DNA of 50,082 nt, taken from NCBI GenBank assembly GCA_944323625.1, contig CALUTD010000017.1, positions 1 through 50,082 on the forward strand. The letters run 5' to 3'. Shown in pieces: positions 837 through 35,976 of this stretch (position 1 is the first letter of the stretch; every line of letters starts with the position of its first letter). The DNA comes from Candidatus Gastranaerophilales bacterium. Lineage in GTDB: Bacteria > Cyanobacteriota > Vampirovibrionia > Gastranaerophilales > Gastranaerophilaceae. The translations under genes and the position numbers were made by a program. Under the pieces are notes generated by a model, which searched no databases, had not been told where the DNA came from, and worked only from the letters and a program-made list of their open reading frames with translations.

Positions 837-925
837 TTTGCTAAAAGCAGTGAATATATGTTAATATAAATCAAAAAGGAGATAAACTTATCAGTAAATC
901 AATAAACCGCCACGGGGGGGGGTAA
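837..925 (+). promoter_or_regulatory. Orphan poly-G prepilin leader (start codon lost)
   Basis: This stretch aligns with the leader at 35164-35258. It shares the promoter-like region, the Shine-Dalgarno GGAGATAAA, then ATC at 890-892 where the other has ATG, seven codons ending CGC CAC, nine G at 914-922 and TAA at 923-925. Neither the nine-G frame nor the eight-G frame leads to a prepilin; the latter reads into the 185-bp repeat and stops. It looks like a leader cut off from its gene body, probably by the event that placed the repeat copy at 971. Confidence 0.7.
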
Positions 926-970
926 ATTAAACTATAAAAATAAGATTTTATTATTTTTTATTAATATAAC

Positions 971-1155
971 TTTAAATCAATATTTCATAAGAAATATTGA
1001 TTTTATTTTGTTTAAATATTGATAAATATTGGTATATAATTATTATTACATAAGAGAATATATAATATGAAAAAGATAAAATCATTTACACTTGCTGAAG
1101 TTTTAATCACCCTGGTAATTATAGGTATTATTGCAGCTATAACTGTTCCTGTTAT
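971..1155 (+). repeat. 185-bp direct repeat, copy 2 (prepilin 5' cassette)
   Basis: Perfect copy of bases 1-185, including the inverted repeat (here 974-1003), the promoter region and the first ~30 codons of the gene starting at 1067. The sharp end of identity inside the coding region implies a recent duplication or gene conversion of the 5' end only. Confidence 0.95.
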
Positions 1156-1807: not shown

Positions 1808-2543
1808 TTATTCTTGAAGCATTTTATATGTACAGCCTGCTCCATTCATATTACTTGTTGATGTATCTGAACAATAAGAATCATTAACACTATAGTATGT
1901 GCTACCTTTAGCTCCCATTGGTAATAGATCTCCGTCATTTGTTAATTGAAACATAAATAGGTCGCGGCCTAATCTGTTAGGACCTTTGCCAAATCCGTTT
2001 ACATCTGCTGAAATGCATGTCTGATTTGAAGTTTGATTTTCTAATAATATTAGTGTACCGTCATTTAAAACAAACTGTCCGTCATCAAAAAGACTAATAT
2101 TTACATTTGCTTTTCCGTTATAAGTTTTATATAGTATATGGTTTTCTCCTTTATAAGCGCTGTTATTTGTATTGGGAATACAAGCTTTATTGACATCGTC
2201 ATGTCCCAATCCGCAATCATACATTACATTTAAGTATTTTGTTAATTTTGATTTTAGAGTATGTAATGATAATTCGGAACTTGCTAGCCTTTCCCCGTTA
2301 TCAAACTGATAATTATCTAAAGCCTGTTTTAAAACAGAATAATTTTTCTTTAAAGAAGATTTTATTGCCTGATTTTGATAATTTGCAAAAATAATGGGAA
2401 CAGTTATAGCTGCAATAATCCCAATAACAACAAGCGTAATTAATACTTCCGTAAGCGTAAATGAAGGTTTTTTAAAAAAACAATAATTATTAAAAACTAC
2501 CTTCTTTCTACCCCCCCCCGTGGCGGTTTTTTGTTTTATTCAT
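1808..2543 (-). CDS. Prepilin-like protein C, interrupted by a nine-G tract
   Basis: Translation from ATG at 2543, preceded by the Shine-Dalgarno AAGGAG, gives MNKTKNRHGGG and then TAG directly after nine G (2519-2511). With eight G, or after a +1 ribosomal slip, the frame continues through RKKVV and a short linker into PSFTLTEVLITLVVIG, a full prepilin signal and transmembrane helix, and on to the C-terminal domain ending at 1808, about 244 residues in all. An ATG at 2224 lies far past the helix and would give a protein without the export signal, so it is unlikely to be the real start. The C-terminal domain has the VNGFGKGPNRLGRD loop of the family. The gene is either switched off in this template, read by frameshifting, or carries a homopolymer sequencing error; two independent loci with the same state make error less likely. 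Confidence 0.75.
2511..2543 (-). promoter_or_regulatory. Poly-G switch or frameshift site of prepilin C
   Basis: On the minus strand the element reads start codon, seven codons, nine G and TAG. The spacing from start codon to the first G is 24 bases, identical to the elements at 890 and 35223. The sequence flanking the tract, CGCCAC before and TA(A/G) after, is also the same in all three. Confidence 0.75.
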
Positions 2544-3135: not shown

Positions 3136-3517
3136 CGCCCTACGGAAAATCCGCTTCTTGGATTTTCCTCTCGGCTCAGGCATTCTGCTTCATTTCGCAA
3201 AAATCTTACGATTTTTTCTTCATTCCGCCTGCCTTTCGCCTCTTCGGGCTCGCACGCTTCCGCGTGACTCCGCCCTACGGAAAATCCGCTTCTTGGATTT
3301 TCCTCTCGGCTCAGGCATTCTGCTTCATTTCGCAAAAATCTTACGATTTTTTCTTCATTCCGCCTGCCTTTCGCCTCTTCGGGCTCGCACGCTTCCGCGT
3401 GACTCCGCCCTACGGAAAATCCGCTTCTTGGATTTTCCTCTCGGCTCAGGCATTCTGCTTCATTTCGCAAAAATCTTACGATTTTTTCTTCATTCCGCCT
3501 GCCTTTCGCCTCTTCGG
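3136..3517 (+). repeat. 135-bp tandem repeat, 2.8 copies
   Basis: Units at 3136-3270, 3271-3405 and 3406-3517 (truncated) are almost identical with a period of exactly 135 bases. Each unit contains internal hairpins: AAAATCC/GGATTTT, AAAAATC/GATTTTT and CACGC/GCGTG. Parts of the unit recur at 3893-3949 and, inverted, at 50031-50082, so it is a dispersed family. Confidence 0.95.
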
Positions 3518-17576: not shown

Positions 17577-18236
17577 CTATAACTTTAACGGATAATCAGC
17601 TTTAATTTCCCAACCGTCAAGTTGGATTAAATAAGTGCATTCTTCTTCTTTATATTGTTTGCAGGCTTCTATAACTTCTTCGCGAGAATTATAATCATTA
17701 CAAATTGAAGCAGAACATGGCACAAACGGATTATCTTCTTGCCAGTTCGGAACGCCTATGATATTCGTAGATACCGGCGGAATATTAAATACAAAAATAT
17801 CTCTGCCGCTTTTATTAGGTCCTTTATCACCGTTTGTGTCAAAATAAATTTTTCCCTCGTAATATGCATAATAAAAAAACTGAAATTTTGTACCGTCAGA
17901 TAAATAAAAAGTGGGTACTTCACCTCCTGCAAAATCATTCATTTCATATTTTTTGTCAACATAGTTAATATGCTTAACTAAATACCTTGTCTGTACATCT
18001 TCCTGGTCAAATGTTAAGTCTCCGCTGCCTTCCCATTCTTTAAGCGGAATACCTTCTTCAACTTCGGCAAGTTTAATTGCATTATTCATTGTTGAATAGA
18101 ACTTTTTTAATCTTGCTGCGGTTTCAGTTTTTTTGTGATTTGCCATAATAACCGGAACTGTTATAGCTGCAATAATTCCTATAACAACCAGCGTAATCAA
18201 TACTTCCGCCAACGTAAAAGAAAGTTTAGTTTTCAT
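17577..18236 (-). CDS. Prepilin-like protein D
   Basis: A 219-aa protein with LSF-TLAEVLITLVVIG at residues 5-20, a hydrophobic helix, and a periplasmic domain with the DTNGDKGPNKSGRD loop and the C-terminal end WEIKADYPLKL. It is closely related to prepilin E at 35223 (ANHKKTETAARLKKFYS versus ANHKKIETAAKLKKFYS). Unlike that gene it has an ordinary start: ATG at 18236 with AGGAG 8 bases ahead and no poly-G tract. It faces an XRE regulator gene across a 155-base spacer containing its promoter. Confidence 0.88.
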   Translation of the reverse strand: MKTKLSFTLAEVLITLVVIGIIAAITVPVIMANHKKTETAARLKKFYSTMNNAIKLAEVEEGIPLKEWEGSGDLTFDQEDVQTRYLVKHINYVDKKYEMNDFAGGEVPTFYLSDGTKFQFFYYAYYEGKIYFDTNGDKGPNKSGRDIFVFNIPPVSTNIIGVPNWQEDNPFVPCSASICNDYNSREEVIEACKQYKEEECTYLIQLDGWEIKADYPLKL

Positions 18237-35170: not shown

Positions 35171-35258
35171 TTGCAAAAAATAGGGAATAATGATAATATA
35201 AGCAAAAAAAGGAGATAAAATTATGTATAAAACAGCAAAACGCCACGGGGGGGGGTAA
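35171..35258 (+). promoter_or_regulatory. Promoter, leader and poly-G switch of prepilin E
   Basis: TTGCAA at 35171-35176 and TAATAT at 35194-35199 (17-base spacer), Shine-Dalgarno GGAGATAAAA, ATG at 35223, seven codons ending CGC CAC, nine G at 35247-35255, then TAA at 35256. The whole block aligns with the orphan leader at 837-925. Confidence 0.7.
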
Positions 35259-35976
35259 AACAGGGTTAGTTTTTAAAAGTTCTTTCTCTTTTACGTTGGC
35301 AGAAGTACTTATTACGATTGTTGTTATTGGAATTATTGCAGCTATAACCGTACCTGTAGTAATTGCAAATCATAAAAAAATTGAAACAGCGGCGAAGTTG
35401 AAAAAATTTTATTCAAATATGTCTAATGCTGTTAAACTTCTTGAAACAGAATTTGGTTGTCCTATATATGAAATACCTAATATATACATGGATGGCCGTG
35501 ATGGATATGAATTAATGAAAGATAGTTTACAAAATGGAATTCTACAATATATAAATTACACGAGTATAGAGAAAATATCTCAAAATGATAACTATTACAA
35601 TAATATAAACAATATTATATATGGTAACGGAGATATTCCGATTGTATATTTAAATGACGGGTCAATATTTTTTGCGGATGAATGCACTGACACTATAATA
35701 TATGATATAAACGGAGAAAAAGGACCTAATGTTATGGGTAGAGATATGTTTCGTTTTTATTTTATGAGAAATGATGATGATCGGCCGGATCTTGCACAAT
35801 CCTTACCACACTTTAGTGCTGTATGGTTTGATCCAATACCTTGGGAAGAAAATAGCAGTATTGATATTTCTAGAGATACAATTTGGAATTCTTGCAAACA
35901 AAATGGAGGTTGGTGCAGTGCACTTATCCAGGTTGACGGCTGGGAGATTAAAGATGATTATCCGTTAAAATTATAA
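35223..35976 (+). CDS. Prepilin-like protein E, interrupted by a nine-G tract
   Basis: From ATG 35223 the frame is MYKTAKRHGGG, then TAA right after nine G. With eight G, or a +1 slip, it reads on as GGGKTGLVFKSS then FSFTLAEVLITIVVIG and a complete prepilin of about 250 residues to the stop at 35976. The only later start in the pilin frame (TTG 35296) falls inside the FTLAEV signal and would destroy it. The periplasmic domain carries DINGEKGPNVMGRD and ends WEIKDDYPLKL, very like protein D (17577). State in this template: in-frame stop, so off unless frameshifting or slippage occurs. Confidence 0.78.

Follow-up and report, generated by a model that had tools for sequence, protein, structure and literature searches.

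Poly-G tracts in coding leaders as probable frame switches of a large prepilin family in a Gastranaerophilales genome

The prepilin gene at 35223-35976 of the window, the 50,082-nucleotide stretch of DNA analysed here, is interrupted behind its leader by a tract of nine G. Slipped-strand phase variation of individual pilins is the best account of this arrangement, and on comparative sequence grounds the tract is very probably a frame switch, one of about 61 in the genome. The account draws on the anatomy of the gene, its family-wide recurrence, the conserved ON frame, the intact ORFs behind OFF tracts and the differences in tract length among near-identical copies. Slipped-strand mispairing in replication would add or remove one G. 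A ribosome starting at the RBS-linked ATG would, when the tract has 8 or 11 G, translate through a Gly-Gly-Gly leader and continue into a type IV filament prepilin, for which cleavage by prepilin peptidase before Phe-Thr-Leu-Ala-Glu is predicted; with 9 or 10 G, translation would end at the tract or shortly beyond. Most cells would have a given pilin OFF and only a minority would have it ON, yielding a mosaic of pilin types. We infer that the switching is reversible and that the pilins are expressed, cleaved by the peptidase and displayed at the surface.

The genome (label G000), a Candidatus Gastranaerophilales-type MAG of 1.99 Mb in which the window forms contig 17, was analysed in the stretches around tracts and prepilins. 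The gene is laid out as follows, features for which no other support is named being read from the sequence:

35171-35199, plus strand: putative shared promoter P1, with TTGCAA at 35171-35176, a 17-nt spacer and TAATAT at 35194-35199
35191-35192, plus strand: extended -10 TG of promoter P1
35210-35214, plus strand: Shine-Dalgarno AGGAG, at the same position in nearly all family members
35223-35246, plus strand: leader MYKTAKRH, eight codons from ATG 35223, ending in CGCCAC
35247-35255, plus strand: G9 tract, the proposed slippage switch; 8 or 11 G are in frame with the prepilin, 9 or 10 out of frame
35256-35258, plus strand: TAA, the end of translation in the G9 state
35257-35976, plus strand: ON-phase prepilin reading frame, stop TAA at 35974-35976 (TIGR02532 match, AlphaFold2 model)
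35290-35973, plus strand: mature pilin, predicted from the ON-phase frame, starting at the F (35290) of the signal SFTLAEVLIT

An earlier, sequence-only reading of this DNA had described an RBS-linked ATG that opens a short ORF closed by TAA right after G9, and AGGAG, ATG, eight codons, G9 and TAA were all found in place. The ON-phase frame from 35257, which lies one base out of phase with ATG 35223, translates as KTGLVFKSSFS-FTLAEVLITIVVIGIIAAI (its opening also written KTGLVFKSSFSFTLAEVLIT), and with eight G at 35247 one unbroken frame extends from ATG 35223 to the stop at 35974-35976, as had been proposed from the loss of one G. The further claim that no alternative start keeps the signal is likewise borne out: the window gene has no ATG, GTG or TTG in the prepilin frame between the tract and FTLAEV, and its first in-frame start, TTG 35296, is already within the signal. 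Restart at a downstream start was rejected for the family as well, an in-frame ATG between tract and signal occurring in only 2 of the 61 gated genes.

The prepilin signal that had been recognised downstream of the tract scores above the profile cut-off, the ON-phase window protein matching TIGR02532 (prepilin N-terminal domain) at 17.1 bits against a threshold of 16.3; Pfam N_methyl was not among the matches for the truncated form of this prepilin. An AlphaFold2 model (mean pLDDT 86) comprises an N-terminal helix of 53 residues (3-55) and an alpha/beta head. A Foldseek search of the PDB with this model gave no significant fold match, and the N-terminus of the prepilin profile matches the solved chains of geopilin, PilA and GspG. 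The protein combines an N-terminal cleavage/methylation motif with a long N-terminal helix and a C-terminal globular domain, the hallmarks of type IV filament prepilins, and the ON-phase product is predicted from its sequence and model to be such a prepilin.

The tract is one of many. Runs of at least eight G on either strand number 121 in the genome against about 5.5 expected from the dinucleotide content of the window, and the window itself holds 3 runs of at least G8 or C8 against 0.14 expected on the same basis, its longest G run apart from the G9 tracts being at most 5. Pure homopolymers of at least 8 thus stand at ORF 5' ends above chance, as at contingency loci. The pattern CYAC followed by at least seven G occurs 74 times in the genome, each time with eight G or more, and its reversed control 0 times. 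An automated rule, under which a few members are doubtful, identified 61 prepilin genes with a tract between an RBS-linked ATG and an FTL(A/S)E(V/I)L signal; 86 matches to the prepilin family were counted in the genome. The earlier description of a G9-gated prepilin therefore holds, except that it took for a single gene what is a set of about 61 in this genome, with others in further genera. A second member lies in the window:

2511-2519, minus strand: G9 tract of a second gated prepilin, out of frame by one base, with its leader ATG at 2543-2541 and the prepilin running down to 1808

The commonest form of the cassette consists of a 24-nt leader ending in CGCYAC, the tract, TA(A/G)A and 49 nt to the signal; a 24-nt leader ending in CYAC is common to most forward-type copies, and TAA or TAG follows the tract in most copies. 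In a second form, which reads TGGVFLSKKSFTLSEVL, the leader measures 26 nt, and a few copies carry an inverted motif, with a poly-C tract read as PPV. In L136, L140, L142 and L014 of this genome and in most gated prepilins of the same-genus genome G259, the CYAC-G-run-TA motif is inverted and poly-C occupies the same place in the gene; the peptide changes from Gly to Pro, yet the DNA motif flanks are kept in both orientations. The promoter-like arrangement TTGCAA-N17-TAATAT with an extended -10 TG lies upstream of 69 tract leaders, well above shuffled controls, the motif having been defined on the same family. A search for the cassette sequence in viral contigs found nothing. Tract-free prepilins also exist (e.g. 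window 17577-18236 on the minus strand, L412-L417 and L420), and in the paralogue L419 the leader is present with an interrupted tract, CGGGGTGGGGTA, in frame.

Two further observations concern the same genome. In L122-L124 (G000:C4:3849-9736), tracts lie within apparent polysaccharide genes (nucleotide-sugar dehydrogenase-like, DegT-like aminotransferase and acyltransferase), and by hand reading the acyltransferase tract seems out of frame. A tandem repeat at 3136-3517 of the window comprises 2.8 perfect copies (100% matches) of a 135-bp unit and is open on either strand.

Recurrence on this scale bears on the fear, voiced in the sequence-only reading, of a homopolymer error in sequencing or assembly behind which the window tract would truly be eight G. 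That the assembly is a MAG lends this some weight; it is nevertheless an extremely improbable explanation, given 121 tracts with conserved context, the mixture of lengths from 8 to 11 at loci built alike and the presence of this design in other genera whose genomes were assembled independently, and family-wide recurrence together with the independent assemblies excludes such an artefact as a general explanation.

The lengths and frames of the tracts carry the argument further. All tracts read in the genome comprise 2 of length 8, 62 of length 9 (53%), 46 of length 10 (39%) and 7 of length 11; the 61 gated genes have 9 in 34 cases, 10 in 25, and 8 and 11 in one each. As at contingency loci, one length class modulo three joins start to body and the others truncate: for 48 of the 61, only lengths of 8 or 11, two above a multiple of three, are in frame. 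Most genes therefore need G8 or G11 to be ON, and the usual lengths 9 and 10 are OFF; in the assembly, 7 genes are ON and 54 OFF. The ON share is below one third with a binomial p of 1e-4, a value that overstates independence since the copies are related, and the 7 ON genes compare with 7.9 expected from random pairing of the observed lengths and frames. Because the ON count matches chance pairing, the OFF bias lies in a common frame set against the modal lengths, not in gene-by-gene selection, and there is no sign of selection on individual loci. With the commonest lengths out of frame in most members, each pilin would be expected to be OFF in most cells.

The idea that the prepilins behind OFF tracts are decaying pseudogenes has a few damaged members in its favour: L119 has no ATG and contains a stop, and L240 has an early stop. 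The bulk of the family argues against decay. An ORF of at least 150 aa is kept behind the tract in 52 of the 54 OFF genes, the body being intact while OFF, and the ON frame between tract and signal is nearly free of stops; over the 49 nt after the tract in 33 aligned copies, 1 stop falls in the ON frame versus 83 and 36 in the other frames, the single exception being L119, whose ATG is also lost. We regard wholesale decay as very improbable. Variation after the tract shows only a weak bias to third codon positions when periodicity is used as a test of translation, a point that counts against the proposed switch.

The sequence-only reading had offered slipped-strand phase variation, programmed +1 frameshifting and transcriptional slippage side by side; the comparative data support the first, speak against the second and leave the third as a possible contributor. 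A prfB-like ribosomal frameshift, in which GGG with a stop in the A site and an SD-like G run would yield prepilin from a G9 gene, agrees with the G9 copies, which read GGG GGG GGG TAA/TAG, and with the commonest OFF offset, since one base too many is found in 34 of the 61 genes here and 27 of 28 G259 tracts are at 9. It is quite improbable all the same. The A-site stop after the slippery codon occurs in G9 copies only and is absent from G10 and poly-C copies, and the G259 copies are mostly poly-C, with neither a stop after the tract nor an SD-like run. Nor is there one direction of shift: 34 genes would need to lose a base and 20 of the 61, being one short, would need the opposite shift, so no single shift rescues both classes. 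Near-identical copies also differ in tract length, and 15 of the 34 gated genes in the genome G042 are already in frame. On the mixed offsets and the poly-C copies, programmed frameshifting is disfavoured as the explanation.

Differences in length among close copies are what slipped-strand mispairing would leave behind. Tract length differs in 6 of 15 pairs with near-identical downstream flanks in this genome, in 121 of 203 in G042 and in 12 of 45 in the genus g14, these pairs being paralogues, not strains; tract length thus varies between near-identical sequences among paralogues, as at contingency loci, in all three, and in none of 126 pairs in G259. Since mutS1 is intact in this genome, hypermutability through loss of mismatch repair is not indicated, and on the evidence of this gene such loss was rejected as a cause.

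Transcriptional slippage would generate both in-frame and out-of-frame mRNAs from DNA of a single tract length, and with them low constant expression of every pilin. Any tract length on either strand would do for this, and it would account both for intact ORFs behind OFF tracts and for the uniform C9 of G259. Taken alone, however, it leaves unexplained the DNA length differences among near-identical copies and the Campylobacter-like length distribution, and as a complete explanation we consider it improbable.

The same-genus relative G259 weighs against phase variation. It has 28 gated prepilins, 22 of them gated by a poly-C tract (read MENKHQIYPP-RGGKTLAFTLSEVL at the ON length). Its gated tracts are exactly 9 long in 27 of 28 genes, with 27 of 28 genes OFF, and are more uniform than its other tracts (Fisher p = 3e-4). 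This uniformity is the main observation that slipped-strand slippage alone leaves unexplained; recent amplification or gene conversion could be the reason. G042, of genus g3, has 34 gated prepilins, 15 of them ON, with lengths of 9-11, and in genus g14 the modal tract length is 12; in both genera the prepilin-leader tracts differ from those in G000 in their flanks and modal lengths. At least one such tract is present in 251 of 288 genomes of the family, many with 30-120, which suggests a lineage-wide poly-G habit. Tracts sampled in other same-genus genomes sit, from their translations, in glycosyltransferase-like, FkbM-like, acyltransferase-like and other surface-type genes, and across 39 same-genus genomes tract number shows no correlation with prepilin-family copy number (rho -0.01). 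In L472 (G273:C3:69736-76835), four similar open frames of a membrane-protein-like family each start directly after a poly-C tract. L250-L257 (G125) represent a different dispersed element, with G11-G12 and once G22 after GGTTTCCAC, apparently not before prepilins.

At about 21 loci the tract lies in a short upstream ORF that is followed by an intact prepilin, typically MKKIKSFTLAEVL, the FTLAEV signal coming 120-167 nt after the tract. One such cassette is found in the window (890-1067), and other examples are L012, L148, L161, L163, L241 and L243:

914-922, plus strand: G9 of the third cassette in the window, in an upstream ORF whose start codon (890-892) is ATC instead of ATG
974-1003, plus strand: terminator-like hairpin (13 bp, with T-rich sequence following), located after the tract-bearing upstream ORF and ahead of the intact prepilin at 1067-1750

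With ATC in place of ATG, the window's upstream ORF at 890 is probably dead. At all these loci but L011 the upstream ORF is followed by a hairpin, mostly 11-13 bp long and with a T-rich run behind it, about 45-80 nt downstream of the tract, and changes on both sides at 6 of 12 predicted pairs indicate covariation. With 8 or 11 G, the upstream ORF remains open over at least 12 codons; in most copies its stop is reached within or beyond the hairpin, in the rest at most 15 nt upstream of it. With nine G the ORF closes at the tract in 21 of 22 copies, and with ten G most copies close at the second codon beyond it. It is enticing to speculate that slippage here controls a transcription attenuator under the same frame code as in the directly gated genes. 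With 8 or 11 G, a ribosome that enters or nears the hairpin would keep it open and transcription would reach the prepilin; with 9 or 10 G, the usual stop at the tract or within a few codons would let the terminator form. We rate this proposal as unlikely. At the loci read by eye, a promoter-like TTGAYW-N16-TATWRT lies between hairpin and prepilin, so the downstream prepilin may have a transcript of its own, and the upstream ORF could be what remains of a gene that was once gated directly. At L027 (G000:C2, about 88130, minus strand), the upstream ORF in its 8-G phase ends at a TAA adjoining the RBS of the next prepilin, an arrangement that looks like translational coupling.

Poly-G phase variation is known mostly from the pathogens Campylobacter, Helicobacter and Neisseria, and a literature search, most subscription journals lying outside its reach, found no report of phase variation in Gastranaerophilales. 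A gut-associated lineage next to cyanobacteria appears to hold some sixty prepilin copies under individual frame switches. If the switching is real, any one cell would bear a small pilin set of its own, which would matter for how uncultured commensals adhere, resist phages and evade immunity. Gene callers can also miss tract-gated pilins in MAGs of this sort, or such pilins can seem truncated.

The type of switch is already known, from poly-G contingency loci, and the closest organisational parallels to the present family appear to be the 11-gene opa family of Neisseria and the vlhA family of Mycoplasma. The opa repeat is a pentamer located within the signal sequence, whereas single G runs lie ahead of the prepilin signal in the present family, whose members are several times more numerous. 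Like opa (11 genes), the prepilins form a paralogous surface-protein family whose members would switch stochastically, the switching here being deduced (PMC11868660, PMC3745409). With vlhA of Mycoplasma gallisepticum they share a large paralogous family, an own repeat for each gene and the inactivity of most lengths, one vlhA repeat length being considered active; the vlhA GAA repeats switch transcription from a position about 40 nt ahead of its start, whereas the tract in the coding leader would act on the frame (PMC6258824). Campylobacter likewise has ORF tracts of at least eight G in an AT-rich genome, a length peak at 9 and 10 (53% of its poly-G/C tracts at 9 and 26% at 10) and frameshift ON/OFF control, with 18-39 poly-G contingency loci in diverse genes (PMC6321876). 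In contrast, about 61 genes of one prepilin family stand here under one shared leader cassette, most of them need 8 or 11 to be ON, and poly-C predominates in a same-genus relative. Novelty lies in how many genes of a single family are involved, in the cassette they share, in a frame that is set against the modal lengths, and in the occurrence of G and C tracts alike.
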